Source of the DNA: Cliona cf. orientalis
Taxonomy: Eukaryota; Porifera; Demospongiae; Clionaida; Clionaidae
DNA: 64,000 nucleotides
Assembly (NCBI GenBank): GCA_963930775.1
Contig: OZ005700.1
Span: 8,256,609-8,320,608, forward strand
Direction: 5' to 3'
Made by a program: the position numbers and the translations under genes. Position 1 is the first letter of the stretch. Every line of letters starts with the position of its first letter. The notes beneath the pieces are model-generated. The model searched no databases. It was not told the DNA's origin and saw nothing but the letters and a program-made list of their open reading frames with translations. Shown here in pieces: positions 12,944 to 48,619 of this stretch.

Positions 12944-15197
12944 TCATGTCACTTGTCTATCTGCATGGGATTTTGTATCCAGCAATCCTTGTATTAGTTG
13001 CATAATATCTCTAATATACTCCTGCTTGTTTCTCTCAATCAGCAGCTCCTCCATGCAGTCCATGACAGTGTGATCTTCAGCCATGCTGTACTTGTTATGG
13101 AACAGCGGAGGTCTAATAGAGCGGCCCAGTGGATCAGTGCTGTACTTGAGGCGGTGGAGATCTCCACTGGAAACAATGCACACACGGTGAATGTTTGACC
13201 CACTGCAGTGTGCCTTTGATCCCTTCCCTATCTCCTCCCATGATAGCCAGATAGTGTCTGATATATATACTCGGGCATAATCAGATTCTGTTCCTGTATT
13301 CATATTTTTGACACAGTGCACATTAATTTTCGTCTATGACATCATAGCTTACAATTCCAAGACTAGAACACTGGACTATTGGAATTGATCCTTACTTATA
13401 ATATTCCGATAGACATATTTTTGCGAGGCATATATATATTATTATTATGTGATCTGTTATGAGAAAAGACCATTAATAATTATTTGTAATGTAGTAGTGG
13501 TAATAATAATATTATGTGACCAGCTATGAGGGACCATTTGGGAGTTTTTTTTGTTTTGTTTTTTTTGTTCATAGTATATAGCTTGTTGCATGTATGGTTT
13601 TCATGTAGACAATCTGCTCTGTTTGTGCCGGTACAACCATAGGCTGTAGCTAATACATGTGGACATGCAGGTTTTTTAAACATACCGGTACCTAGTATAT
13701 ATAGCATTACTAACATACCACCTGCCAGAACTACAAGATTTGTAATTTATAGTATGAATGGCATTAATTTTGTGGCTGTCTGTAGGCTGGCTACAACCAT
13801 AGGCTAGCTAGTCTTCATGTACATGTACTGTAAAGCTATCCTATAGTCCAACCAAAATTAATACAGCTGAAGTTACAATAGGAAATTTATTTGGAAATTC
13901 TACGGTCTGAGCAAATTTCTGATGACCAACATGCAGATCTAGACTAGCGTCAACTAGGTAGGGCCTAAGCCTTAGCACCCGTTATGTATAATATAAGATG
14001 TGTAGATGTGTGTTGTAGCCACCCCCTTCCTTCAGGCTCAGACTTACTATTGATCCATGTGTGTAGCAGTGTGCCATAGAATGCCTCCTCTGGACTTCTG
14101 ATGGGCTTCACAAACTCATACAGTGCTCGGGCTTCAGTACTGTGTGTAACAAATTCAGTAAACTCTGGGGTCAGGGAAAAGTAAGCCATCGTCTTAAACA
14201 ACTTCATTCCATGTGGAACAGGTTTGCTCTGAAATCCACCAGTAAACTTACACACGTCTTTCGTTGAATCAATGCTTGTAAGATGGAGTTTTTGTGCGTA
14301 GTCTTGAGAGCTAAATTTACTTGTATAAACAACGGGACGCCCCTCCATTCCCTTGAGGAAACGAACCATCTCCCTGTTGGTACGTAGTGGAAGCTCTTTT
14401 CCACACAGGGTTGTCACATATTTCCATCGAAATGTTCTTTGTAATTTCAAGAGTGCTGACATACAGCTCAGTTGAGCATCAAGTATGGGGTAACAGCCAT
14501 AAACCACGTTCACAGTCTTCTCAGGAATGATCACATTCCGTAGACATTTGGCTAAAGTATTGATCACCTTCTTAACCTCATTATTTGATTTCTGATCGTA
14601 GTGGATACAGTAGACGTTGTGAGATCGATAGATATACTTCAGAAAGCGAACGATCTGTTGAGGATCAGAGTGAATATTGATGGAGAAGGCTAAAGGAAAG
14701 GAACGCTCTTCGTCAGAAGTATAAAAATTTCCCTCAAATTCTGTTCTGATCTCTTCACAATCCTCAGAATTAAGAAACAGGTTTGCAAATTTCTGATCAT
14801 ATTCAGAGGAGTTCCAATTCCGATTTGCTTCGGTGACCCTACTGATTTCAGTCTGATTAATACCAGTGAACAAGGCTGCACAATTTCTAGAAATTTCAGG
14901 CTCTAAAAGTGTTACCACTCCCTGCTTCCACGACTTGAACACCTGTAAGTCAATACTGTACATATAATTTTCAGTAGACTGTAATTCTTGGTCAGTGTTT
15001 GCGGAGGCATTAATTATTGTCGAGGTTGCCAGGGTCAGTCCCCGTGTTGTGCCTTCAATCGGTTCATTTGCTGTCGTCGAGTGAGTCGAATAGCTTCGCT
15101 GTACAAACCAATAAACTAAAGAGATCAAGGATACGGCTGAAAATGCCTGAAACAGCAGGAATAGTGAGAACAATGAGCGAAATCCTATCTTTTCCAT
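12944..15197 (-). CDS. Core-2/I-branching beta-1,6-GlcNAc-transferase-like, copy A
   Basis: Two exons (14048-15197 and 12944-13293) with a phase-1 intron give 499 residues. It is a type II membrane protein with an N-terminal hydrophobic anchor (SLFSLFLLFQAFSAVSLISL) and a Golgi-lumen catalytic domain. Glycosyltransferase family 14 features: FPLAFSINIH, VYCIHYDQKS, WKYVTTLCGKELPL, AYFSLTPEF and RSPEEAFYGTL; the Glu in the last fits the catalytic Glu of GCNT1. The second exon carries WLSWEEIGKGSKAHC and VCIVSSGDLHRL, matching the GCNT1 C-terminal part. Family members add branching GlcNAc to O-glycans. If translation read through the first exon's donor it would add about 25 unrelated residues. 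A paralogue lies just upstream on the same strand. Confidence 0.85.
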
Positions 15198-15834
15198 CGA
15201 AAACTATTGCCGAGGACGGTCCACGAAACATATAGAAATATGTATAAACTTGAGCAGGATAGTTTAATACGATAGCATATCACCAAGAGCAGACGTACTG
15301 CACCGCAAAAGAAATTTAAATCGCAGCAATAGTGAGAAAATCACACTTTTACATTTATAACACCATGGCCCATGGCCACTGCCTATCTGGTGCTGGATCT
15401 GCGCATGCGCCAACTCACCCACACAACCGAACTTCACTAAGGTAATGTCCCTATCACTAGATAAAAACTCAAATTTCATGCATGTAGGAAATACGTAGGA
15501 TAGGGCAAAATTTTCTACACATTTCATTTATTTAAAAAAAAACTCTGCCCTATCCTGTGCCAAACATGTGTTGGAAAGCTCGAGTTTTGGTAAGCATGAC
15601 ATAAAGGAAATCTTACTTTTGGTCCAGTGTATTATGAGTCACTTAAGCAAGTGATATGCCACATATGTAATAGGGAGGTTATTTTTTGTGGTTAAATTTT
15701 TTATGGACTTCCCAATGTGTCTATTACATCGGGTACGAATGAGATCTCCCCTATTAAAAGATGTGATTTTTAAAAAATTATCTTGTCAGCACTATTACTG
15801 GAGGTATTAAGCTTACTCCAATTATTAAAGGTCA
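15198..15834. other. Spacer between the two GlcNAc-transferase genes
   Basis: Holds the upstream region of copy A and the 3' flank of copy B. It is AT-rich, with no credible exon or TATA box recognised. Confidence 0.4.
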
Positions 15835-17664
15835 TTAAAACCTAGTAGTTCTATCCAGCAACTCTTTCCTAGCAACTAAATTCTGCGTGTCTCTATCTCT
15901 AATATACTCCTGCTTGTTTCTCTCAATCAGCAGCTCCTCCATGCAATCCATGACAGTGTGGTCTTCAGCCATATTGTACTTGTTATGGAACAGCGGAGGT
16001 CTAACGGAGCCCAGTGGATCAGTGCTGTACTTGAGGCGGTGGAGATCTCCACTGGAAATGATGCACACACGGTGAATGTTTGACCCACTGCAGTGTGCCT
16101 TTGATCCCTTCCATATCTCCCCCCATGATAGCCAGATGGTGCCCGATACAGTAACATTAAGGCGATCCTGCATCTGTGACAGGCTTGCATTGTCAGATTC
16201 TGTTCCTGTATGCAATAATAATAATGAATAAGAGGGGGATCTCCCCTTCTTCCCCTTTCTCCCTAGCCCTTTTCCCTCTTTCTCTCACTTTACCTGGCAA
16301 ACTTCTGTTTGCTATCACATGGAAGCTTATGAGATGCTGAAACTGAAAATTTTCTATATTTTAGTAAACAGCAACTGCTGCATGTTCTATCGGGTATATA
16401 ACAGGTGCCTCGTATACACTACCGATGCAAAGGGGCTATTCCTTCCATTCACGGTTATCTTTATAACATTCATTGATATAATATATCCACAGAGAGAGGG
16501 AGAGGAGTTTTTGTACACACTAATTATGTTAAATAAAGAAAGGAGAGCCTAGAGAGAGCGTGGGTAACTCCGATCAGCAGGCTCAGACTTACTATTGATC
16601 CATGCATGCAGTAGTGTGCCGTAGAATGCCTCCTCTGGACTTCTGATGGGCTTCACAAACTCATACAGTGCTCTGGCTTTAGTACTGTGTGTAACAAAGT
16701 CAGTAAACTCTGGGGTCAGGGAAAAGTAAGCCATCGTCTTAAGCAATTTCATGCCATAAGGAACAGGAGCGGTCTGAAGTTCATTAGTAGATTTGCAACT
16801 GTTTGTTTTTGGATCGATTCTTGTCCTATGAAACTTGTATGAGTAGTCTTCAGAGCTAAATTCGCTAGTATGGATAACAGGATGCCCCTCCATTCCCTTG
16901 AAGAAACTAACCATCTCCCTGTTGGTACGTAGTGGAAGCTCTTTTCCACATAGAGTGGTCACATATTTCCATCGGAATTTTCTTCGTAATTTCAACAGGG
17001 CTGACATACAGCTCAGTTGAGCATCCAATATTGGATGACAGCCCCATGATATGCTCAGGAGCCTCCTAGGAATGAACACATTATGTAGACATTTGTTTAA
17101 AGTGCTGAACACTCTCTTGACCTCACTGCTTGATTTCTGATCGTAGTGGATACAATAGACATTATGAGGTCGGTAGATGGCTTTTAGAAAGCGAACAATC
17201 TGTTGTGGACCAGAGTGAATATTGATGGAGAAGGCTAAAGGAAAGGAAAGTTCTTCGTCAGAAGTATAAAAATTTCTATCAAACTCTGTTCTGATTTCTT
17301 CGCAGCCTTCAGAATCAAGAAATAGATTTGCAAATTTCAGATCATACTCAGAGGAATTCCAATTCCGATTTGCTTCGGTGACCCTACTGATTTCAGTCTG
17401 ATTAGTACCAGTGAACAAGGCTGCACAATTTCTAGGAATTTCAGGCTCTAAACGTGTTACCACTCCCTGCTTCCACGACTTGAAGAGCTGTAAGTCAATT
17501 TCTGAATGAGGGGGGCGGGTCTGTTGCAGTACTGTCTTTTGAAATAGATCACTTACTTGTGTTGAACGAAATGAACAGCTTTGCTGTATAAACCAACAAA
17601 TTGCGATTAATAAAAATAAGGTTGAAATTATCTCGAACAGCAGAAACAACGAACGAGGTTTCAT
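15835..17664 (-). CDS. Core-2/I-branching beta-1,6-GlcNAc-transferase-like, copy B
   Basis: Tandem paralogue of copy A with the same two-exon plan (16593-17664 and 15835-16205) and the same phase-1 intron position, giving 480 residues. The frame is open to an ATG at 17736, but alignment to copy A's anchor (RSLF.LLF) favours the ATG at 17664 (MKPRSLFLLFEI). Motifs retained: FPLAFSINIH, VYCIHYDQKS, WKYVTTLCGKELPL and RSPEEAFYGTL with the candidate catalytic Glu; exon 2 has WLSWGEIWKGSKAHC and CIISSGDLHRL. It differs most from copy A in the stem, in the segment after KELPL, and at the C terminus. Expected to be a Golgi type II enzyme; acceptor specificity cannot be told from sequence. Confidence 0.84.
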
Positions 17665-18017
17665 CTCTGATCGGCATGTCAGGGCAGCATCCATACGGTA
17701 AAGGGTCGTCAACGTTTGTTTGGCAATAACGTGCATAGTAACCGTAATGAATTCATTATGATTCTGTGTAAATAATTATGTATACACTACAACATAAAGT
17801 AATTATAACACAAAAACAATAATTATTATTATGGCAACGTTAAAATTATATTATGGCTGAGAGATGAATACTGCAATGATGTTCTTGAATGACAAAAAAT
17901 TAATGTGCATACACAAAAATTTCAGAATAAATTTACAATAGTAACAATAATAATGATTATAATGACAATGGTGAGCACCCTGTAATAATGATAGTTAATG
18001 ACTAGAGAGAGTTGAGT

Positions 18018-29781: not shown

Positions 29782-30099
29782 CTTTCTTGAGGACGTAAAT
29801 TTTGAAGAGTGAGTCAGTAGCTTTTTTTTTTTTACTGAAGTTTTCAATCTTTCCTCACTCGTGACAAATGAACCAATCTTCCTCTGCACTCGAGCTTCAT
29901 GCTTTTTGAGGGACGCGCTCCGAGTCATAATAGAAGTTTGAGGAAGTTTGTGGTTTTGCGGTAGTGAACGCTTCCGGGTCACACATTCCCGCCAAATTTG
30001 TGCAAGCGCTCAAACCAGCCACGCCCCCACTTTGCTTGGAGAAGCAAGGTTTATATAACGAGCCGTGCGGATAACTTTGAGAGTATTAAACTTAAAAGG
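29782..30099. promoter_or_regulatory. Putative bidirectional promoter (LST2-like and adducin-like)
   Basis: 318 bp separate the two inferred divergent start codons. Open frames extend into it from both sides, so the true starts could lie within it. No TATA box is obvious. Shared use is inferred. Confidence 0.5.
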
Positions 30100-33000
30100 A
30101 TGCATGCCCGCAGACCAGCAGCACCGCCCCCCGTTCCTGCGTGGATGGACGCAATCTCCTCCTCGAAGCCAACAAAGACGCACTCCTATGTGCTGCAACG
30201 TGATTTCAAGCTGCTGGAGAGGGAACAGAAGGTCACAACACTCCTTGGCAGCGAGGCCTTCCGCTCAGAGTTAGAGAATATCTTGTGGGGACAGCTCGAG
30301 GGAACGGGGGAACCGAAGAAAACAAAACCTCAATCTCCAGGGGCCACAAGTCCCGGAAGATTTGAGATGGGTCATAAATCTCGACATCCCTCCACCGTGG
30401 TTGCCTCGGTGATGGGAGGAGGGGTAGGTGGAGAGCCTGTAATTCCTATCAATGATCTGAGGGGTACAGCTGCTTCGAAGTACACCATCGCTGAACGTGA
30501 CCAGAGGTGCAAATTGGCTTCTGTTTACCGTCTCGTACACATGTTTGGGTGGTCTCAACTCATTTATAACCACATCACTGTGAGTCACAGCTTCACTTGC
30601 ACAAAAATTTAATTATCTGCATCCTCCCAATAGAGAACACAGATCCTTTACTATATAATTGCATGGCTGGCTACAGAAGCCTTTTGCTATTGTTTTTTTT
30701 TTTTTTTCAATTTCCTCAACAGCTACCGATAGCTTAAAATCCTGATGTTAGCATTATTAGCCGTCTCTCATTTCCAGGCGCATGCACCAGGTGATGATGA
30801 TACATACCTAGTCAATGCATTTGGCTTGCTGTATCATGAGGTCACAGCATCAAATCTGGTGAGAGTGAATTTGGAAGGAGAAGTTATCGATCCCGGCAGT
30901 ACACGGTTTGGCATCAATAAAGATGGATTTGTGCTCCACTCGGCCATCCATGAAGCAAGAAGGGACATTGGATGTGTTTTACACTTGCATACCAATACTG
31001 GAATTGCAGTAAGCCAGAAACTAATGCTATAGAATTCATTATAAAACTTTCTTCCGGTAAAAGGTATCATCTATGAACTGTGGTCTCTTACCAATATCTG
31101 GAGAAGCTGTCGGGGTATGTTATATTATTATGATGCATCCTTTTAATTAAGTATTTATCTCCCATATCTACTTATAGCTAGGAGGAATTTCTTATCATGA
31201 TTTCAATGGCTATCTGGATGAAGAAGATGACTATGAAGGTCACCAAGCATGGAGAGAGAAATTAGCTAATGACCTTGGACCAAGCAATAAAGTAAGCAAA
31301 GCCAGCAGCTATACATCAGTATGCATATTTCCAATTTTTAAAAATGAGTTAATTAATTTTTATGAAGGTACTCATTCTTCGCAACCATGGTCTGGTTGCC
31401 ATGGGAGGCAGTATTGAGGAGACATTCCACATCACCCAAAAATTAGTCAAAGCATGTGAAATACAGGTATAGTATATTATATTTTCATCAGCAAGTTTAT
31501 GCATAACTATTAATGCAGGTTGCTGTGATGTCTGCTGGGCTGGGAAGTATTCACCAGTGCTCGCCGCAAGGGGTGTGGTCTAGTGTAGGTGTAGGTGTGG
31601 CTTGCATGGGAGGAGTGGGAGGAGCCTGTAGTGGATCAATTGGTTCCAGTCCCAGAAAATGGAGAATCGGAGAATTGGAATTTGAAGCACTCATGCGAAT
31701 GCTTGACAACAAAGTAAGAAACAATGTTAGCCTTATCCTCAGTGCATGCAACATTGAAATGCTGGGGGGGGGGGGGGGGGGGGGTAAGGAGGCTATAATA
31801 TGAAAATTAATTCAAATAACTTTATTGAAAATTCAGCAATAATTATTGAGTTTTCTACTAGCATACTACACTTAAAAATTGATGATAGCAAGTTCAATTT
31901 TGTTCTGGACAGCAGCTCAGTTAACGGTTAAAATAATCTTTCCACGAGCCCCTGATCCACTCTTAAGGAGAACTTGAGCATCGGCTGCTTTCTCGAGGGG
32001 GAACTCCTTCCAGATGTAGGGGTTCAGCCATCCTGCCTTTGCTCCAGCATAGAGGGCCTCCCTGGTCTCAAACAGCTCATCATTGGTGATGTTGTAAATC
32101 ATTACTCCCTTAATGACCACCTCATGGACAAACACGTCTAAAGGATTGATTGCAATATCAGTAACCCCTCCAACCACAACGATTCGGCCTTTATCGCGAA
32201 TAAGACTGATGTCCTTCTTTAAATTTTTGTCTGCGATACTTTCTACGATCAAATCGATTCCTCTTCCACCAGCAGCCTCCTTGACTTTCTCAAGGTAGTC
32301 TTCCTCGTAGTGGTTGAAAATGAAGTGGGCTCCAGCTTTCTTTGCGAGTTCTTGGCCTTCTGGGGTGCTGGCTGTTCCGATCACAGTCAGCCCAAGACCA
32401 CTGGCAATCTGGACAACTGCAATACCTACACCTCCACTGGCTCCATGAACAAATACGGTCTCACCAGGCTTGGCTTGAGCAATATGGTAGAGAGCCCTGT
32501 ATGCAGTGAAGTAGGGGATAGGAAGGCTAGCTCCTTGTGAGAAGGTGAGGTTGTCATGAAGAGGGTGAACAAGATTATGCTTGATGGCAATGAACTGAGC
32601 ATAGGCTTTCATTCCATCTGGAGCAGTAAGGTCCGATCCATAGACTCGCTGTCCCACTTTCAAATCAGTCACATTGCTTCCAAGCTCTTCAACAATGCCA
32701 GCGAAATCAGCTCCTGGAATGTAGGGAAACTTCTGTGGGCCGAAGCTTCCAGTGCGAATGAGCACATCAACTGGGTTGACTCCAACAGCCTTGATTCGAA
32801 CAAGCACGTCATCTGGCCCTGGCTTGGGACGGGGTACATTGGTGCTGTACTCCAGCACCTCTGGTCCTCCAAATTTGCGCACCTGGACTGCATTCATCGT
32901 AGCCATTTCTTTAATAGCAGTTGAAAGGTAGTAATATTCCTTGGAGATGAGAGGTTTATTATTGCTTCTTGATTGTTGTAGTTCAATCTTTCTTTCTCTG

Positions 33001-34542
33001 AACGATGAGGGGCCTGATAGCTGCTTTTATAGATTGCCATCATCTTGACATAGCTACAACGCAGCATTAAATTTTGTGCGACGTGACTACGGGCCTCCAG
33101 AGAAGAAGAAAGGGTGTAACCCTCACGCTGTCAATAATCCAACAGGGAGCTGTATAAAAATCAATTTGCTGTATAGTAGAAGGCATGATCGTCACGCCCC
33201 CTCCAGCATGAGTACATGACCGTCACGCCCCCTAATGTTACATAACCGCGGATGAGGCGTGATGGTTACACCCAGCATGCAGGTCATTGGAATGTGCACA
33301 ATCCTGAGCATGCGTAATGCCTCATCTGCAGGGATACAATACTGGATACAGGTACAAAGGCCTTGGCCTGCTGGAGCCTGGAACTGGCACACCCACCATC
33401 AACAGGAGGGACAGAATCAAACCTAGTGGAGAAAACAGAACAGAGGTGCTGCTGAAAAAACTATTGTGCAGTTTTATTATCAATATAATACTGTGTGTAT
33501 GTATGTAATGCAGCACGGTTAATTTTTTATTGCAATAATTCATAGGATCACTGGGACTTTCTGGATGATAAGAAACTGGCTCCTGATGAGCCGTTAACAA
33601 AGGCAAAGTACCTCAGACAAGCCGCCACACATGCAGCTGCAAAACTTGATGAATCGAAGAATGCCACTGCAAGTAGCCCCAGAGACTCTTCAAGAAAGGT
33701 AGCTATTAAAATAATAGCATATTACTTGATTTAATAATTTGGCAATCAATGATGGCCTGCAGGTACTGAGCAAAACATTCAAATCGTCCCTCTCTGATGA
33801 AGAACCCCAGAGCCTCACTCCACTGGAACATATACAACAAACAGCAAAGCGGGTGGCTCAGTCTACAGGAGAAGCAGTGGAGAGACTTCAGTCTAAGAGA
33901 GCACTACCTAAGCCGCCGGGTCACTTGGCAAATCATGATGATCTGGAAGATGAGACACTCACCCCTTTACAACGTGCTCAGCTAACAGCAGAGAGGGTGG
34001 CTCGCTCTACGGGAGAAGCTGTAGAGAGGCTACAGGGATCCAAACTAGATCAAAGTCCACACCAGGCCACAACTGGAGAACGGCCAAAATTACTGGGGAG
34101 CAAAAACAATACTATGAGATCTCATCATCACACCACTCCAAAGAGGCATGTCGCTCCCGACACACGTAAGCTTGAGAATATGCGTGACGTGGAGCACAAA
34201 TCTGGCCTCAGTCCGCTAGAAAGAGCGGAAATTACAGCAAAAAGAGTGGCCTTGTCTACAGGAAAATCTCTGGAGAGATTGAGCAAATCACAAACTGAAA
34301 GTGGACTGCAACATTCTCCACCTCTATTCGAAAGTACTGAGTCAGGATCGGACACAAGTACTAGTGGTTCAGAATGCTCTAGATCTACTAATTCTGAAAC
34401 CAGATTAGCTTCAGCTGATCGTTTGGCTGATCTTGATCACTTGAGCTCACTAGAGAGAGTGAGACGTACAGCAGAGATGGTTGCCGATTCTACAGGTGCA
34501 GCAGTTCAGAAGCTATCAAGCTCTCTTTCAGACAGCATTTAG
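30100..34542 (+). CDS. Adducin-like protein with a four-repeat tail
   Basis: Nine phase-consistent exons give 738 residues: 30100-30579, 30778-31008, 31064-31114, 31178-31291, 31368-31466, 31519-31713, 33332-33445, 33546-33698 and 33763-34542. The head is the class II aldolase-like domain of adducin: [90 protein letters not shown] and [10 protein letters not shown] match the adducin neck. Adducins cap actin filaments and link them to spectrin under the membrane. Instead of the Lys-rich MARCKS-like end of vertebrate adducins, the tail has four copies of a 26-residue repeat. The ATG at 30100 is chosen because upstream in-frame sequence does not look coding. The 1,618 bp sixth intron contains an antisense oxidoreductase gene. 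Confidence 0.88.
31764..31784. repeat. Poly-G run of 21 in adducin intron
   Basis: Twenty-one consecutive G about 50 bp after the donor of the sixth adducin intron. It could form G-quadruplex in the transcript; assembly length is uncertain. Confidence 0.9.
31821..31826 (-). promoter_or_regulatory. Probable polyadenylation signal of oxidoreductase copy 1
   Basis: AATAAA on the minus strand, about 90 bp after the stop of the nested oxidoreductase gene. Confidence 0.5.
31917..32906 (-). CDS. Quinone oxidoreductase, zeta-crystallin (CRYZ)-like, copy 1, nested in adducin intron
   Basis: Intronless 329-residue medium-chain reductase. It starts [20 protein letters not shown] and has [29 protein letters not shown] and the nucleotide-binding loop [11 protein letters not shown], ending [11 protein letters not shown], all as in CRYZ. 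The family reduces quinones with NADPH as a one-electron, zinc-free enzyme; the zinc-binding Cys pattern of alcohol dehydrogenases is absent. It lies wholly inside the sixth intron of adducin on the opposite strand. A TATA-like box is 118 bp upstream and a polyadenylation signal 90 bp downstream, so it looks like a complete independent gene. It is closest to copy 2. Activity is inferred from intact motifs. Confidence 0.9.
   Translation of the reverse strand: MATMNAVQVRKFGGPEVLEYSTNVPRPKPGPDDVLVRIKAVGVNPVDVLIRTGSFGPQKFPYIPGADFAGIVEELGSNVTDLKVGQRVYGSDLTAPDGMKAYAQFIAIKHNLVHPLHDNLTFSQGASLPIPYFTAYRALYHIAQAKPGETVFVHGASGGVGIAVVQIASGLGLTVIGTASTPEGQELAKKAGAHFIFNHYEEDYLEKVKEAAGGRGIDLIVESIADKNLKKDISLIRDKGRIVVVGGVTDIAINPLDVFVHEVVIKGVMIYNITNDELFETREALYAGAKAGWLNPYIWKEFPLEKAADAQVLLKSGSGARGKIILTVN
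33024..33032 (-). promoter_or_regulatory. TATA box, oxidoreductase copy 1
   Basis: CTATAAAAG on the minus strand, 118 bp before the ATG. Boxes in similar positions occur upstream of the other three copies. Confidence 0.65.
33814..34518 (+). repeat. Four coding 78-bp repeats in adducin tail
   Basis: Copies at 33814-33891, 33958-34035, 34207-34284 and 34441-34518, each encoding 26 residues. Key positions: Leu-[Ser/Thr]-x-Leu at 1-4, Thr-Ala at 10-11, Val-Ala at 14-15, Ser-Thr-Gly at 17-19 and Leu at 25. Spacers are of unequal length (66, 171 and 156 bp) and rich in Ser, Asp and Pro. The heptad-like spacing of Leu, Ala and Val suggests an amphipathic helix. I do not recognise the repeat. Confidence 0.9.
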
Positions 34543-34914
34543 TTTTTTGTTGTGTGAATTATCCTTACTCAAAGATAAGTAACAGACCACATATTATGCA
34601 TGGGGCTACATTAATTTTAGTGAATTGTGGGCGTGTGGTTACTATCAAGGCATGTATTAAAGAATGAGATTATAATAGTTGTAACAAAAGAGTCAAAAGA
34701 CTACAGACACAATAGTGAATCGATCAATTCCAATTATTGCAAGAAAAGAATAGGAATTTAAAGCACCCAATTGAATGCTTGACAACAAGATAATATAACT
34801 ACACTTCAAATTTTCAACTAAGTAATTGCAGTTCCAACTATATAGCTATATACAAGGTTTACTGTCAGCCTACACACGACATTCTATATACCTAATAATT
34901 AGAATTCCATTAGT
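34543..34914. other. Spacer between adducin stop and oxidoreductase copy 2 stop
   Basis: AT-rich convergent 3' flanks. No further exon or element recognised. Confidence 0.45.
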
Positions 34915-35904
34915 TTAGTTAGCGGTTAGAATAATCTTTCCACGAGCTCCTGCTCCACTTTTGAGGAGAGTGTGAGCATCGGCTGCTTTCTCGAGGGGGA
35001 ACTCCTTCCAGATGTAGGGGCTCAGCCATCCTGCCTTTGCTCCAGCATAGAGGGCCTCCCTGGTCTCAAATAGCTGATCGTCATTGATGTTGTAGATGAA
35101 CACTCCCTTCACGGTAACCTCATTGGCGAATATATTCACAGGATTGAGTGGAATTTCAGTAGCACCTCCAACAATAACGATTCGACCTTGTTTGCGAATG
35201 AGACCGAGGTCCTTCACCAAATTTTTATCAGCGATGCCTTCAATGATTACGTCAATTCCTTTTTTACCAGCAGCCTCTTTCACTTTCTCTAGGTAGCCCT
35301 CCTCGTAGTGGTTGAAAATAAAGTGAGCTCCAGCTTTCTTGGCAAGCTCCTGGCCTTCTGGGGTGCTGGCTGTTCCGATCACAGTCAGCCCAAGACCACT
35401 GGCAATCTGGACAACTGCAATACCTACACCTCCACTGGCTCCGTGAACGAATACGGTCTCACCAGGCTTGGCTTGAGCAAGGGTAAAGAGAGCTCTGTAT
35501 GCAGTGAAGTAGGGGATAGGAAGGCTAGCTCCTTGTGAGAAGGTGAGTTTATCGTGAAGAGGGTGAACAAGGTTGTGCTTGACAGCAATGAATTCAGCGT
35601 AGGCTTTCATTGCATTCGGAGCAGTCAGGTCCGATCCATAGATTCGCTGTCCCACCTTCAAATCAGTCACATTGCTTCCAACTTCTTCAATTACACCAGC
35701 AAAATCAGCTCCTGGGATGTAGGGAAATTGCTGTGGGCCGAATGCTCCAATTCGTATGACTACATCGACTGGGTTGACTCCAACAGCCTTGATTCGAACA
35801 AGCACATCATCTGGCCCTGGCTTGGGACGGGGTACATTGGTGCTGTATTCCAGCACCTCTGGTCCTCCAAACTTGTGCACTTGGATAGCGTTCATGGTAG
35901 CCAT
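34915..35904 (-). CDS. Quinone oxidoreductase, CRYZ-like, copy 2
   Basis: Intronless, 329 residues, same length as copy 1 and its closest paralogue here. Starts [20 protein letters not shown]; has [19 protein letters not shown] and the NADPH loop [11 protein letters not shown]; ends [11 protein letters not shown]. Start chosen to match its paralogues. The frame is open upstream to 36042 and would add 46 residues (beginning MYRVQGDVACTVWRLYST), more likely 5'UTR because the TATA-like box at 35993 falls inside that extension. Expected to reduce quinones or similar enones with NADPH in the cytosol. Confidence 0.9.
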   Translation of the reverse strand: MATMNAIQVHKFGGPEVLEYSTNVPRPKPGPDDVLVRIKAVGVNPVDVVIRIGAFGPQQFPYIPGADFAGVIEEVGSNVTDLKVGQRIYGSDLTAPNAMKAYAEFIAVKHNLVHPLHDKLTFSQGASLPIPYFTAYRALFTLAQAKPGETVFVHGASGGVGIAVVQIASGLGLTVIGTASTPEGQELAKKAGAHFIFNHYEEGYLEKVKEAAGKKGIDVIIEGIADKNLVKDLGLIRKQGRIVIVGGATEIPLNPVNIFANEVTVKGVFIYNINDDQLFETREALYAGAKAGWLSPYIWKEFPLEKAADAHTLLKSGAGARGKIILTAN

Positions 35905-35992
35905 TTCAGTCTGCCGCCAGCTGTCCTGTGGAAGAAGTATCGATTCCTTGGAGATGAGACTCAGAGAGGTCGATATTGGCTTCTTGCTCGTG

Positions 35993-36001
35993 CTATATAA
36001 C
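35993..36001 (-). promoter_or_regulatory. TATA-like box, oxidoreductase copy 2
   Basis: GTTATATAG on the minus strand, about 89 bp before the ATG. Confidence 0.55.
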
Positions 36002-36311
36002 CGCCACACCGTGCAAGCCACATCCCCTTGCACGCGATACAAGGGAGCAACCTCACGTTTTCAGGCCTGACCATTTACGTCATACTGGGTACTTGGTCGT
36101 GCCTGTGGTATAGGCATCAAATTGCACGTCTCCTATTCCCAGCGCGTGCATGAAGGGGGCTGGGCACGAGACTAGTGCCAGTGATGTGGTTTAATAGCTG
36201 TGATAATTATAGCTAGCTACAAGCTTCATAGCGCATCAAATTCGTATGCATGCAGGCCTAGGTATAATATTATTACAAGACTTGCATTAGCTAGAGCTCT
36301 TGATTGGCAGC

Positions 36312-38312
36312 TTAGTTCACGGTCAAGATAATCTTTCCACGAGCTCCTGCTCCACTTTTAAGGTAGCATCAAAGTGCGTGGGCGTGAGCGTCAGGATTGG
36401 CTAATTTAATTAGCGAATCGTGAAGGGGCGTGGCCGAAGAGCCCATACGAGTGCTTTTGGTCGAAGGTGGGCGTGTCCAGAATCGGCCAGGGATGATTAT
36501 GCGCGTGTAATTAGCGACCGGAAGTGGCCCCTGAAGAAAACACCGGTAATTGCCCACTTCAAAGCAAGATCAAAGCATTCTTTCTTAACTATTAACCGCA
36601 ACGACAAAAAAAAAAAAAAAGAAAAAAAAAGGTTAATTAGGCCTAATTAAGCATGTGGGCGTGTTCCTGGCACTGTGTGGAGTGTGTGCGTGTGCGTTAA
36701 TGCAGGTTTTATTGCTTCCGATTGGGCGTGGCTTCACGGGCCAGTGCTTGGACATCGGGGCCGGGGACTTGGCTGCGGCGATAGGTGGGCGTGTCCCGGA
36801 TGCGGTGGTGACCTTTGAACCCGGCCAGGAGGCTTTGGGGGCGTGGCAGGAGGTCAAAGGTGAGGCCATGTCAGTTAATGAGGCACTGTACGGCGGTGCG
36901 ATCGAGGGGCCTGTACGGCTGGACGGAAGCTGACGATGGTTTGAAGCGGATGTGGTTGCGATGACGTGTTGTTACTCCGCCCACACAGGAAATGAGGTGA
37001 GCTCTTGCGTGGGCGGTGTGGCAGAACGGCCTCCAAGTGTTTGTGTGTGTTTTGGCCTTGAGGAAGCTGTGTGTTTTAATTGGGATTGATTGTGGGCTTC
37101 CGGTGGACATCCGGTGGTTAGTAGGCACTTGATTGAGAATGGTGGTCCTTGGGGAACAGGGTGGGGCTGTTTTGGGCGTGGCCTGGCCCCTCCCTTCCGG
37201 CTCGGCTTCCGGTCCATGGAGGATATTAAATGAACACTTCCGGCTCTAGCAGCCACACCCCTGAGACCTGTGCAATTAAAAGGGCGTGGTTACACAACAT
37301 GCACCTCACTAATGACTTTGATGTGGTTTAGGTGTCATATCCCCCACCTCACGCCCACGCACTTTAATGCTACCTTAAGGAGAGTGTGAGCATCGGCTGC
37401 TTTCTCGAGGGGGAACTCCTTCCAGATGTAGGGGCTCAGCCATCCTGCCTTTGCTCCAGCATAGAGGGCCTCCCTGGTCTCAAATACCTCTTTATCATCA
37501 ATTCTGTGGAGGGATACTCCTTTCACGGTAATCTCACGAGCAAATATGTCCACCGGATTGATGGTAACGTCAGTAGCTCCACCAATGATAATGATTTTGC
37601 CTGTATCTCTCACAAGGCCAATATCTTTTTTTAGATTCTTGTCGGCAACATTTTCAAGAATCACATGGATTCCTTTTTTACCAGCAGCTTCTTTTACTTT
37701 CTCAAGGTAGCCTTCCTTGTAGTGGTTGAAAATAAAGTGGGCTCCAGCTTTCTTTACGAGTTCCTGACCTTCTGGGGTGCTGGCTGTTCCGATCACAGTC
37801 AGCCCAAGACCACTGGCAATCTGGACAGCTGCAATACCTACACCTCCACTGGCTCCGTGAATGAAGATAGTCTCACCAGGCTTGGCTTGAGCAAGGTGGT
37901 AGAGAGCCCTGTATGCAGTGAAGTAGGGCACAAAAATGCTGGCTCCTTGTGAAAACGTCAGCTTCTCGTGAAGTGGATGGATGAAATTGTGTCTTACTGC
38001 AATAAATTGAGCATAGGAGCTTATTCCAAAAAGATTCGATCCATAGACTCGCTGTTCCACCTTCACAGTAGTCACATTGCTTCCAATTTCTTCAACAATA
38101 CCAGCAAAATCAATACCCAGGATAATGGGAAAAGGTGGATAGAAAGGAAACTGTCCTGATCGTATGACTACATCGACTGGGTTGACTCCCACAGCCTTGA
38201 TTTGAACGAGCACGTCATCTGGCCCTGGCTTGGGACGGGGTACATTGGTGCTGTACTCCAGCACCTCTGGTCCTCCAAATTTGTGTATCTGGACAGCATT
38301 CATCGTAGCCAT
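36312..38312 (-). pseudogene. Quinone oxidoreductase, CRYZ-like, copy 3, split by a transposable element
   Basis: Single-exon reading frame from [20 protein letters not shown] at 38312 down to ..AHTLLK at 37375. The last 14 codons ([14 protein letters not shown] and stop) lie at 36312-36361, on the other side of a 1,013 bp inserted element. Removing the element plus one TTAA restores the frame exactly. Read-through makes a 325-residue protein whose native end is replaced by about a dozen residues encoded by the element (VALKCVGVRWGI). The NADPH loop [11 protein letters not shown] and the rest of the enzyme are intact. It may be inactive, truncated, or partly rescued by splicing; the insertion looks young because its ends are almost identical. 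Confidence 0.85.
36362..37374. mobile_element. 1,013-bp non-autonomous DNA transposon with TTAA target duplication
   Basis: Terminal inverted repeats of about 27 bp beginning GGTAGCATYAAAGTGCGTGG, with one mismatch (C/T at position 9). Flanked by TTAA at 36358-36361 and 37375-37378, duplicated against the uninterrupted paralogues. The interior is GC-rich compared with its surroundings and studded with GGGCGTG motifs. Its open frames do not resemble a transposase, so it would have to be mobilised in trans. TTAA duplication is typical of piggyBac elements, but the tips do not begin with the usual CC. Confidence 0.88.
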
Positions 38313-38686
38313 TTAGTCTTTGGATCTGCACTGAATCCGCTGGCAATGATTTTGAATGACAGCTGAGGACCCTGACTTGTCACAAGTTCTCTAGACTGGA
38401 ACAGGCTTGCTTTATGTGACCCTGAGGAAAAACCACCCAGACATGCGCTGTAATTAGCTCTTGGCCCTGTGGGTGGATATTACATAATAGTGATTGATAT
38501 TCCAAAACATAAACTGGGTAACATGTATACAATTCAGCATACAAATTCGTACTCATTTTAAGCCAAAATTACTCCTTACGGTAAAACTTTTTCTCTAGTA
38601 ATAATTACTATTATCTGCTGCTGATAATCATGTTTGCATGGTAGCTAGAGTGTTCTACAACAAAGGCTATACTGCAGACTAGCTTC
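38313..38686. other. Spacer between oxidoreductase copies 3 and 4
   Basis: Upstream region of copy 3 and 3' flank of copy 4. No additional gene seen. Confidence 0.45.
38409..38416 (-). promoter_or_regulatory. TATA-like box, oxidoreductase copy 3
   Basis: CATAAAGC on the minus strand, about 97 bp before the ATG. Weaker than at copies 1 and 4. Confidence 0.4.
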
Positions 38687-39670
38687 TTAATTAACAGTCA
38701 GGATAACTTTTCCACGAGCTCCTGATCCACTCTTGAGGAGAGCAAGAGCATCGGCTATCTTCTCGAGAGGAAATTCCTTCCAGATGTAGGGGTTCAGCCA
38801 TCCTACCTTTGCTCCAGCAGAGAGGGCCTCCCTGGTCTCAAACAGCTGATTGTCAGTGATTTTGAAGAGGGACAGACCTTTCACAAGAATCTCGTGCAAA
38901 AGTGTGTCTATCACATTGACGGCTGCATCAGGAGCTCTTGATCCTATGAGAATGATTCTGCCTTGGTCTCGTACAAGGCCAATATCTTTCCTCAGATTCT
39001 TGTCTCCACTATTTTCAAGAATTAAGTCAATTCCTCTTTCATCAGCAGCCTCCTTTATTTTCTCAAGGTAGCCTTCCTCATAGTGGTTGAAAACAAAGTG
39101 GGCTCCAGCTTTCTTTACGAGTTCCTGGCCTTCTGGGGTGCTGGCTGTTCCAATCACAGTCAGCCCAAGACCACTGGCAATCTGGACAGCTGCAATACCT
39201 ACACCTCCACTGGCTCCGTGAACTAATACAGTCTCACCAGGCTTGGCTTGACCGAGATGGCAAAGAGCTCTGTATGCAGTGAAATAGGGCACAAAAATGC
39301 TGGCTCCTTGTGAAAATGTCAGTTGGTCATGAAGTGGATGGACGCAGTTTTGTCTTATTGCAACATATTGAGCATAGGAACCCATTTTTTGAAGATCTCC
39401 TCCATAAACTCGCTGTCCCACCTTCAAAGTAGTCACATTGCTTCCAATCTCTTCAATAATGCCAGAAAATTCCATTCCAGGGATATAAGGAAGCGGTGGT
39501 GGTACAAAAGTTCCAGTCGCAATAAACTCATCGACTGGGTTGACTCCAGCAGCCTTGATTCGGACGAGTACATCATCTGGCCCTGGCTTGGGATGGGGTA
39601 CATTGGTGCTGTACTCCAGCACCTCTGGTCCTCCAAACTTGTGCACCTGGACAGCATTCATCGTAGCCAT
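38687..39670 (-). CDS. Quinone oxidoreductase, CRYZ-like, copy 4
   Basis: Intronless, 327 residues, starting [20 protein letters not shown] by analogy with its paralogues; the frame is open upstream to 39694. It has [19 protein letters not shown] and the NADPH loop [11 protein letters not shown], and ends GARGKVILTVN. It is the most diverged in the substrate-side segment (DEFIATGTFVPPPLP) and near GLSLFKITDNQ, so substrate choice may differ. It heads the array and is divergent from the copine gene. Confidence 0.89.
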   Translation of the reverse strand: MATMNAVQVHKFGGPEVLEYSTNVPHPKPGPDDVLVRIKAAGVNPVDEFIATGTFVPPPLPYIPGMEFSGIIEEIGSNVTTLKVGQRVYGGDLQKMGSYAQYVAIRQNCVHPLHDQLTFSQGASIFVPYFTAYRALCHLGQAKPGETVLVHGASGGVGIAAVQIASGLGLTVIGTASTPEGQELVKKAGAHFVFNHYEEGYLEKIKEAADERGIDLILENSGDKNLRKDIGLVRDQGRIILIGSRAPDAAVNVIDTLLHEILVKGLSLFKITDNQLFETREALSAGAKVGWLNPYIWKEFPLEKIADALALLKSGSGARGKVILTVN

Positions 39671-40109
39671 AATTTTCAGAAGATTCCCCGTCAAAGTTTT
39701 ATTATTATTATTATTATTATACTAGCAGCAGCAGCAGTGTTGTGGTATCTTGAACTTCTCAGTGGCTGATGAGCCCTACTGGTTGGTTTTATAGCCACTG
39801 GGATAGCTCCTTGCTGGGTGTAGCATACAGTGTACTGCTTACAATACCACGCCACAGGGTGTGGTAGGTATTGTCAGCATCTTTTACTAATAATTATAAC
39901 CACAATGATATTATTTTTATGGCAAGACTAGACTCTGGAATGTGCAGAATGTATACGCGGCATACATAACGCAAGGCACGGATGAAGTGGGTGGGGCTGA
40001 TTCTATGACGCCATTGCTCATGACACGATATGACATCAACATGACCCTCGACCCGCGCCGGTACCACGTACGTACCCGTACCCGTACCCGACGCGACGCG
40101 AGCAGAGCG
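39671..40109. promoter_or_regulatory. Intergenic region between divergent oxidoreductase copy 4 and copine
   Basis: 439 bp between start codons. Includes ATT and GCA trinucleotide runs near 39705-39735, the copy 4 TATA box, and a short CGTACC hexamer repeat near 40063-40088 just before the copine ATG. Confidence 0.55.
39786..39794 (-). promoter_or_regulatory. TATA box, oxidoreductase copy 4
   Basis: CTATAAAAC on the minus strand, about 116 bp before the ATG. Confidence 0.6.
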
Positions 40110-43581
<3,472 letters not shown>

Positions 43582-44288: not shown

Positions 44289-46026
44289 ATGAAGGCAGAG
44301 TATATCGTCCTGGCTACTGCAGTAGCAATTGTCATCATTGCTGCCAGCTGTGATGGTCAGTTCTGACTCAAATAGAGCATTATTGCATTGATTACTATAA
44401 TGCTTCACTGCACTATATAGCCACCTATTATTCTGAATCATCATCAGGAAGAAGACAATGGTCATCATATGGATATCGATGTGGCAAATGTAATAATGAG
44501 AGAAAAGAACGTTTGAAGGATGACTCTTAAGTTGTACTGGCTTTTTCTACCTTGCAGGTAAAGGAGCAAGAGGTGATAGAGGTCATATAGGCTACCCAGG
44601 AAGAACTGGAACTAAAGGAGAGCCAGGTCCTCCTGGGCCACCAGGAAAAAATGGCCAACCAGGTAGCTACAACTGAGATGTGCACGATCACTATCTTAAA
44701 ATTTAATGATCTCTGCATCTGCCATTTCTCTTTTTCACAGGATACTCTGGAAGACATGGTCAGAAAGGAGAAAAGGGAAGCCCGGGAAGACGTAAGTGAG
44801 CAACAGCAGCTATTGCCTATGCAAATCTCTAGTGCCAGTGGTAATCTTAGCATATTATGTCTTTTTGCATGAGCAGCAATTTTCATCAAAGGACTCAAGG
44901 GGTGCAAAGGAGAGGTAGGGGATCATGGACCTCAAGGTTTTCCCGGAGATAAAGGCCCTCAGGGGCCGAAAGGCACTCCTGGACGCAAAGGACCACCAGG
45001 ACTGACAGGTTAATTAATGTACCTCTAATGTAAAAGGTACTATTATTGAGTACAACCATTCTCATGCACTGCAGGAGCCAAAGGAGACCGAGGTAATAGG
45101 GGATTTCCAGGAGAGCCAGGAGAGCCAGGCCCACAAGGCCTCAGAGGTGATGATGGAACTCCAGGAAGACAAGGGCTAAAGGGTGACAGTGGAGCACCAG
45201 GAATGAAGGGAGAGAGAGGAAACCCAGGACCACAAGCACCGACCGTTCAAGGTCAGATTTGATCACTGTAACAGTACTGCTTCATTGTACTGTCAGTTTT
45301 AAGCTTGCACTGTAACAAAAATCAATATGCTGCATATACACACACTCACAGGAGAAAAAGGAGAGAAGGGAGCCAGTGGTAAGTACACAGTAGTTATACA
45401 TCCAGCTAGTACAGTCATATTATCACTGATTCTCTGTCATATTCATAGGTCTCTCTCGTGGTGGTAGCACCTACATTCGCTGGGGAAGAAACACATGTGA
45501 TAAAGGAGAAATTGTTTACAATGGGGTGGCGGTGGCAAGACAAGGCTCCAATCCAATCTGCCTGCCAAACTACGATCAGAGCAACGATGACATCAGCATG
45601 CAAAACGTCCCTCCTGTGTTTGATTTCGATCCAGCCGATCGTGCGAGCATTGAAGGAGAGAGCCAAGAACTCACCCCAGTCGGTGTCAGACACGACAACA
45701 ACATCCAATCTCGACTACTCTGTGCTTTGTGCTTTCTCCCGAGCCTACCAGTGCCCACCGTGATAGTAGGCACACAACTCTGCCCAAAGATTGGTGAGTG
45801 GAGGCTGGAATACTACGGGCAACTAGTGACTACTGCTAGCGACTACATCTGTGTGGATCTCGAGAGGGGTATAGCTATGCAGCTTCCCGAGGGGGACTTC
45901 ACGGCACCAAGCTTTGCTTATCTACTACAATCTGTGAATACTGACTGCCAAGGATCGATGCTTAGCTGTGCAGCTGGGAGGCGGTTTGAGGAAGTACCAT
46001 GTGCAGTCTGTACACGTGTCAGCTAA
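44289..46026 (+). CDS. Short-chain (spongin-type) collagen 1
   Basis: Secreted matrix protein. It starts with a signal peptide ([20 protein letters not shown]), then a Ser/Tyr-rich segment with a Cys pair, then about 40 Gly-X-Y triplets over several exons, broken by short imperfections such as [14 protein letters not shown]. The C-terminal non-collagenous domain begins [10 protein letters not shown] and has further Cys at [24 protein letters not shown] and VPCAVC. This matches the short-chain collagen C4 family of freshwater sponges and other invertebrates, which has been related to the type IV collagen NC1 domain. Introns in the collagenous part fall after the first base of a codon, nearly always Gly. 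A second such gene follows 0.9 kb downstream on the same strand, suggesting duplication. Confidence 0.87.
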
Positions 46027-46916: not shown

Positions 46917-48619
46917 ATGACAGTGATGGATCTCATCTCAAGCTTATTGCTATGCTTATTTGTGGTGCTAAACGTGTATATCACTCCCATTCAACCAGTT
47001 CCAAGCCACACTGGTGAGTCTGAGATACCTAACCTTGCTTGATACAGATGTCATGTGGTGACATCTGATCTGGAGACTCAGCTGTCTCAGCATTCATTCA
47101 CATTTGCACTTTTTTATGCATTGATCCATGCAGGTAGATGTTGTCGAGATGGAGAACCAGGTATTGACAGCCCAAAATTATAAATTTAAACTATTTTTGA
47201 TGTGATTGCTGTGTATTATAATGTAGGTATTAGAGGTCAAAAGGGCAGCCGAGGGGAGAAAGGAGACCGCGGCCTCCCCGGAACGTGCACCCAACAAATG
47301 GTAGATAGAATGAACTTGACATCAGATCTTAGAATCAGAAGTCGTGGAGACAGAAGAAGTGACCGAAGCGACGGAAGAGGGGAGGAGGAGGAGGAGGGTG
47401 TAAAAAATATGCTAACTACATTATTCGAGACTTGTGTCGATGACGTATTATCGGGTGATGAAGAAGAATCATTGGCATTCAGAAATAGAAGTGAGCAGTC
47501 TAGCAATTATCAATTAACACATTCGTTTATAATTATTATTAATACCTTTCACAGTTTCTATTGTTAAGGGTGAGAAGGGAGAAAAGGGAGATAGAGGAGA
47601 GTCTATTATTGGTGAGACTGGACTACCAGGACCAATAGGTCCAATAGGTAAATCATGCAATGAACTAGCTATAGCTGGATAGATCATTCCAGTACGATGA
47701 TATTATTATGATAATAATTATAACAGGACCCCGGGGAATGAAGGGAGAGCGGGGGGAGATGGGAGACGTGGGAAGCAAGAGAGAGCAGGGAGTCAAAGGA
47801 GAGAAGGGCTGTGAGGGACCCATGGGTCCGATGGGAGTCAAAGGAGCTCGAGGATCAGAGGGCCCAGCTGGACCAGCAGGACTCCCAGGACCTCAAGGTA
47901 AATAATAATTATTATCTGCTTCATTAAATACCCAATTAGCTATGCAATTTCCATAATATCCATGCTGCAGGAGAGAGAGGACAAACTGCACAAACAGGTA
48001 TATTATATATAATGTCATAATCATTTCTATGTATCCATACAAAAGGAGTATGCAAGTTACGTAGAAATTATCTCCGTTTGTGCTTATAGGTTTGGTGTAT
48101 ACACGATGGGCGGAGTGCACATGCCCATCAGACACAACCTTACTCTATGATGGGATTATCGTCCAGGCAGCCAACATGCTGACCAACCTACTTTGCATCC
48201 CTAAAGACTCGACCACCACCACCACCACCACCACCACCACCACACCCTCTTCCCACATCACGAGAATGGAGCCACTTCTCTACACAAACAGAATGGGAGT
48301 GACTGATGCAATCCCCTGTGCCCTGTGCCATGCCAGTAACCAGTCAACCATCTTTACCTTCTCTGGAAGGAGGACTTGCCCTGGGGATTGGATCAGGCAG
48401 TATAGTGGATACCTCACAACCTCCTATGAGCTTAGCACGGCTGATGTACTGTGTGCAGATGAGTGGTTGAGCAGAGAGATAAGATGGAGGGACCCCAGCA
48501 CTGGAGCTGTGATTAGTAACGGAGTGAATATGCTCGAGACCGTTTGTGGAGAGGGTGTGGCTTCGTGTCAAGGATACGGGGCCAGACAACTGATGCCATG
48601 TGTTGTCTGCTCTAATTAA
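46917..48619 (+). CDS. Short-chain (spongin-type) collagen 2
   Basis: Signal peptide (MTVMDLISSLLLCLFVVLNV), two adjacent Cys, a short Gly-X-Y run, then a long non-collagenous insert with acidic and Arg/Asp-rich stretches and two Cys (after LPGT and in LFETC), then three exons of Gly-X-Y repeats. The C-terminal domain starts VYTRWAECTCPS and has LLCIP, IPCALC, RTCPGDW, DVLCADEW, LETVCGE and LMPCVVC, the short-chain collagen pattern. A run of 11 Thr from an ACC repeat (about 48211-48243) sits in this domain. All collagenous introns interrupt a Gly codon after its first base. It differs enough from its neighbour that the duplication, if real, is old. Confidence 0.86.

Follow-up and report, generated by a model that had tools for sequence, protein, structure and literature searches.

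The adducin gene described here has a real, selected and unusual end, in which the usual head of adducin, an actin-filament-capping protein of the submembrane cortex, is joined to a tail carrying four copies of a 26-residue unit. We modelled it with nine exons between positions 30100 and 34542 on the + strand of the 64-kb window (the whole stretch of sponge DNA that was analysed), encoding a spliced protein of 738 residues (Table 1). The model is a prediction from splice signals and reading frames. All eight exon joints are GT-AG and in phase 0, those linking exons 7, 8 and 9 being drawn only from splice signals and open phase-0 frames.

Table 1. Exons of the adducin gene and repeat units of its last exon, in window coordinates.
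Feature	Position	Strand	Basis or place in the protein
Exon 1 (start codon; N-terminal part of head)	30100..30579	+	splice signal, frame; aligned to pig adducin 8iah
Exon 2 (aldolase-II fold)	30778..31008	+	Pfam PF00596 E 4.5e-18 on ORF; gene model
Exon 3	31064..31114	+	gene model; pig adducin alignment
Exon 4	31178..31291	+	gene model; pig adducin alignment
Exon 5	31368..31466	+	gene model; pig adducin alignment; PF00596 positions 149-183
Exon 6 (end of head)	31519..31713	+	gene model; pig adducin alignment
Exon 7 (GYNTGYRY; last stretch alignable to pig adducin)	33332..33445	+	gene model; pig adducin alignment
Exon 8 (without detectable vertebrate neck similarity)	33546..33698	+	gene model; neck comparison
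Exon 9 (last; whole repeat-bearing tail, 259 residues + stop)	33763..34542	+	phase-0 GT-AG joint; five predicted helices
Unit 1	33814..33891	+	protein residues 497-522; exon 9 residues 18-43; predicted helix 20-44
Unit 2	33958..34035	+	protein residues 545-570; exon 9 residues 66-91; predicted helix 68-91
Unit 3	34207..34284	+	protein residues 628-653; exon 9 residues 149-174; predicted helix 151-180
Unit 4	34441..34518	+	protein residues 706-731; exon 9 residues 227-252; within predicted helix 210-258

An adducin head without a recognisable neck or MARCKS-like end

The identification as an adducin, first made by a sequence-only reading of this DNA, was confirmed by the head. Of aldolase-II type and matched by PF00596, the head was closest to adducins among the PDB chains: residues 14-405 aligned with pig adducin 1 (PDB 8iah, E 1.2e-88) and residues 7-399 with pig beta-adducin (PDB 8iah, E 8e-69), while the best bacterial enzyme, 3ocr, gave E 3.2e-49 over a shorter aligned stretch. 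In adducins, a glycine replaces the Arg/Lys that the enzymes carry after the first helix, some enzymes also having a glycine at this place (PMC12599920). The sponge protein exhibits this adducin-type glycine (FGW), as in pig adducin (LFGWSHLIYNH) and in contrast to the KRW of the enzyme 3ocr (LKRWTDHIYTH), the column having been equated to the published residue by our reading of the alignment.

We searched the genome (216.8 million bases in 149 contigs) for further copies. PF00596 was found in three places, two of which were exons of this adducin gene. The third was rejected as a second adducin since by eye its motifs read like those of a methylthioribulose-phosphate dehydratase. All genome matches of the middle part of the protein (six of six) fell on this gene, and this locus is the single adducin gene that we found in the genome.

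Several other features were observed around the gene and in the genome. Intron 6 contains a run of 21 G (31764-31784) and encloses entirely, on the opposite strand, a quinone-oxidoreductase-like ORF (31917-33026, -). This ORF belongs to a series of four such uninterrupted ORFs of the zinc-binding dehydrogenase family, the others lying at 34915-36060 (-), 37335-38312 (-) and 38687-39721 (-). Two similar neighbouring ORFs were present at 13965-15203 (-) and 16549-17775 (-), the former matching the core-2/I-branching glycosyltransferases (PF02485, E 2.6e-26) and the latter being judged alike by eye. The ORFs 45430-46026 (+) and 48065-48619 (+) had no Pfam match at E 0.001 and share a Y-x-R-W-G/A-x-x-x-C start, a motif known from the C-terminal domains of sponge short-chain collagens. 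The mitochondrial contig C149 (19.6 kb) carries a cox1 with an in-frame TGA, an ORF read as atp9, and 26 tRNA genes (ARAGORN), all on one strand, a combination that points to a demosponge; mitochondrial cox1 was found with equal score on C149 and C111, the latter of which may be a second mitochondrial assembly or a nuclear copy.

Beyond exon 7 the resemblance to vertebrate adducins was lost. A human neck query (EVQEMRNKIREQN region, 141 residues, confirmed against PDB 8iah) recovered zero genome matches at E up to 10 and chance matches only in the window and in the spliced protein, in searches that a far-diverged neck could still escape. As a positive control, 127 residues of the pig head, used with the same tools, found the head exons, both in the genome (E 3.8e-7 and 2.8e-6) and in the window (E 8e-16). 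The MARCKS-like segment, whose absence had been proposed from the sequence, was indeed not recognisable in the modelled protein, the densest 22-residue stretch of which holds six K/R. Since the neck is undetectable as well, the sponge protein differs from vertebrate adducin in more than its MARCKS end.

It seems unlikely that the gene has several alternative ends, with a MARCKS-like or other tail in a further isoform. In the fly, some adducin isoforms have the MARCKS end and others lack it (PMC4265757), and of the two K/R-rich frames that we found downstream of the gene on the + strand, the lysine-rich one at about 36555-36647 is a candidate exon. However, this frame overlaps an A tract (36606-36630) and lies past an oppositely oriented oxidoreductase gene, the other (39461-39529) runs antisense to an oxidoreductase gene, and a MARCKS-type pattern had no match in the three + frames of 29968-41000.

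Four old copies of a 26-residue unit

The four units share one open frame in the last exon, at the positions where the sequence-only reading had placed them. The best set of four windows reached 50 of 78 identities, whereas 300 shuffled exons averaged 21.6 (s.d. 1.1) and went no higher than 25; the four-copy repeat is real and far above chance. Ten of the 26 columns are invariant (L1, L4, T10, A11, V14, A15, S17, T18, G19 and L25), the first codon of unit 4 being TTG, and pairwise identity between units ranges from 13 to 20 of 26. Tandem Repeats Finder did not report the array, for which the unequal spacers may be the cause. A fifth unit in exon 8 was considered and rejected, the four-unit profile at full sensitivity finding only four units in the spliced protein.

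Units 1 to 4 contain 3, 4, 5 and 4 K+R, rather than the two or three basic residues per copy counted previously, together with three acidic residues each, the net charge of whole units being 0 to +2. The spacers had been described as unequal, with Ser/Asp-rich stretches. They are unequal (22, 57 and 52 residues), but only the third is S/T-rich with an acid excess (19 S/T, 9 D/E and 4 K/R); the first is acidic with only 2 S/T and the second is basic (11 K/R vs 6 D/E). By motif reading, a Ser/Thr-Pro at the helix N-cap opens units 1-3. The protein terminates in SSLSDSI (34519-34539), the final D-S-I of which presumably fits the class III PDZ ligand motif.

Between units, dS was 0.99-1.62 in four of the six pairs and saturated in the other two, and dN was 0.14-0.48 over all six, these estimates being rough with 26 codons per pair. 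The units thus differ at many synonymous sites with a low dN, indicating that they are not fresh duplications and that their protein sequence has been held. They are old copies kept by purifying selection between units.

The structure of exon 9 was predicted with AlphaFold2 from this exon alone, as one sequence without alignment. The best of the five models had a mean pLDDT of 62.3 and a pTM of 0.19, the other four having mean pLDDT values of 48.0-58.2. It displayed five helices, those bearing the units (Table 1) and a short one (residues 134-143) within the second spacer; the helices of units 3 and 4 extend well beyond their units. Per ten-residue block, pLDDT was 83-89 inside units vs mostly 40-52 in linkers, and each unit is predicted to form a separate helix between flexible linkers. 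The nine invariant core residues fall on the same side of the helix (R 0.53, p 0.014), which agrees with the amphipathic helices anticipated from the sequence, and the four separate predicted helices support the multivalent arrangement suggested with them. The hydrophobic moment peaked at 99-102 degrees in three of the four units, whereas unit 3 peaked at 62 degrees and lacks a helical-period peak. Likewise, the core moment stood out from shuffles in units 1, 2 and 4 (0 of 5000, p 0.0100 and p 0.0046, respectively) but not in unit 3 (p 0.11).

Among genome matches, the unit was located only in this exon (2 of 2 in one search and 4 of 4 in another). A unit profile gave best PDB matches at E 0.38-0.39, neither the unit nor exon 9 matched a Pfam family above cut-off, and the unit fits no known ligand motif. 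The PDB matches of exon 9, HeliScrew4 (E 0.14) and a quorum-sensing regulator (E 0.28), were taken as chance. Prokaryote genomes and viral contigs, screened first by short patterns for the unit or the whole exon, yielded 38, 42, 125 and 6 pattern matches, none of which was confirmed by tblastn. Two Pfam candidates were rejected because they fell under their cut-offs, the PF24410 winged helix (E 1.3e-4, 22.7 bits for a cut-off of 23) and the histidine phosphatase His_Phos_1 (E 0.0012, 19 bits for a cut-off of 21.7), their best stretches of 24 and 29 residues matching one helix; a phosphatase of NCBIfam gave one match (E 0.022). We judged these phosphatase and winged-helix matches to be convergence on an N-capped helix. 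An A-kinase-anchor pattern, matched once in exon 8 and never in the units, was also discarded.

Possible functions of the tail

On balance, with confidence slightly above even, we read the tail as a flexible stretch of 259 residues with four N-capped amphipathic helices that dock one protein partner, replacing the neck and the MARCKS-like end. This reading builds on what was obtained by computation, i.e., the head homology, the repeats, the purifying selection, the predicted separate helices, and a neck and MARCKS end undetected in the modelled protein. As in mammals, the adducin heads would form tetramers that occupy actin barbed ends, and one actin cap might then carry up to 16 hanging helices. 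Each helix would offer the same residue-specific face (L4, T10-A11, V14-A15, T18 and L25) to one cortical-skeleton or adhesion protein, and many weak helix contacts could together recruit it strongly yet adjustably. Phosphorylation at the N-cap Ser/Thr-Pro in units 1-3, and within the third spacer, which is acidic and rich in Ser, might regulate this docking. Both spectrin- and vinculin-family genes are present in the genome.

A broader proposal, which we put forward as a doubtful one, is that sponge adducins built a tail of their own: a multivalent array of one dedicated docking helix with its own partner, linking actin cap and cell cortex with no need for a neck or for a calmodulin or PKC switch. 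If this were true, the MARCKS switch would either have been gained later by other animals or have been lost here.

The helices could otherwise associate with each other, tail-tail bundles within the adducin tetramer substituting for the oligomerising mammalian neck. The neck is undetectable, the small-residue faces of the units could pack, and in mammals the neck is the oligomerisation region and tail-tail contacts have been reported (PMC5976920). Nevertheless we consider self-association improbable, as the prediction, made for a monomer, did not place the units relative to each other with confidence (pTM 0.19).

Membrane binding, which the sequence-only reading had envisaged, was disfavoured by our results, and we give it little credence. 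The helices would be embedded in, or rest against, the inner leaflet of the membrane in place of the phosphoinositide-binding MARCKS end, and the MARCKS end of fly adducin has been reported to be important for interaction with PIP2 (PMC4265757). The units are indeed amphipathic, with their three to five K/R, but their net charge is 0 to +2 and an 11-residue internal period is lacking (mean BLOSUM -0.25 at lag 11, the highest of lags 3-17 being 0.31 at lag 8). The lipid-binding discriminant is 1.23 in unit 3, which passes the usual threshold of 0.68, but only 0.41, 0.33 and 0.34 in units 1, 2 and 4. The lack of the period and the low discriminant in three of the four units also led us to reject membrane helices of the synuclein/perilipin type. 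Moreover, exact residues are conserved rather than general amphipathicity. Membrane binding places looser demands on a sequence, and repeated protein docking accounts better for four separate helices that each have a residue-exact face.

Least probable is the special case of docking in which the partner is named, the four helices binding a vinculin-family head like the vinculin-binding helices of talin: vinculin-family matches exist on contigs C12 and C8 and all four units fit the LxxAAxxVAxxVxxLIxxA spacing (PMC11226457) if Thr/Ser is allowed at the core, but none satisfies the strict hydrophobic pattern, the loose one is also found in 2.5% of shuffled units and at one further place in the protein, which overlaps unit 4, an invariant Gly lies inside the helix, and Pfam scans of exon 9 and of single units gave no vinculin-binding-site family.

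Comparison with known adducins and talin

The earliest adducins have been reported from Placozoa, or possibly from Porifera, adducin-type domains being present in both, and we found no mention of a repeat tail for these domains (PMC12599920). Adducin is unmentioned in the main texts of PMC13291127 and PMC4265756. Among the matches listed in our literature search, which covered a minority of subscription journals, none of the titles and abstract starts dealt with the tails of sponge adducins. A sponge adducin that has the head but neither a recognisable neck nor a MARCKS end would point to a regulatory part that could be changed wholesale early on, and the unit is a compact, testable motif for finding a cortical partner in sponges; if only one species has the repeats, the finding is a minor one.

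The docking helices that we favour for the tail can be compared with those of talin, with which they share the spacing of non-polar positions when Thr/Ser is allowed. They differ from them in that the strict hydrophobic consensus is unmet, and in that talin vinculin-binding helices sit in helix bundles whereas the sponge units lie in a predicted flexible tail.

To our knowledge, no 26-residue repeat occurs in the Drosophila Hts isoforms ShAdd, Ovhts and Hts-PD. Like the sponge protein, these are adducins without the usual MARCKS end, but they are isoforms of one gene that exist alongside the MARCKS-bearing Add1 and Add2 (PMC4265757).

In mammals, oligomerisation is a function of the neck, and spectrin recruitment, which is under the control of PKC and calmodulin, needs the MARCKS-related tail; vertebrates have three adducin genes (PMC5976920), compared with the one found in the sponge. 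Vertebrate adducin (8iah) and the sponge protein have in common an aldolase-type head and, behind it, a C-terminal region that is extended. In contrast to the vertebrate protein, the sponge neck is unrecognisable and the modelled protein, without MARCKS-like end, carries a four-unit helical repeat instead.
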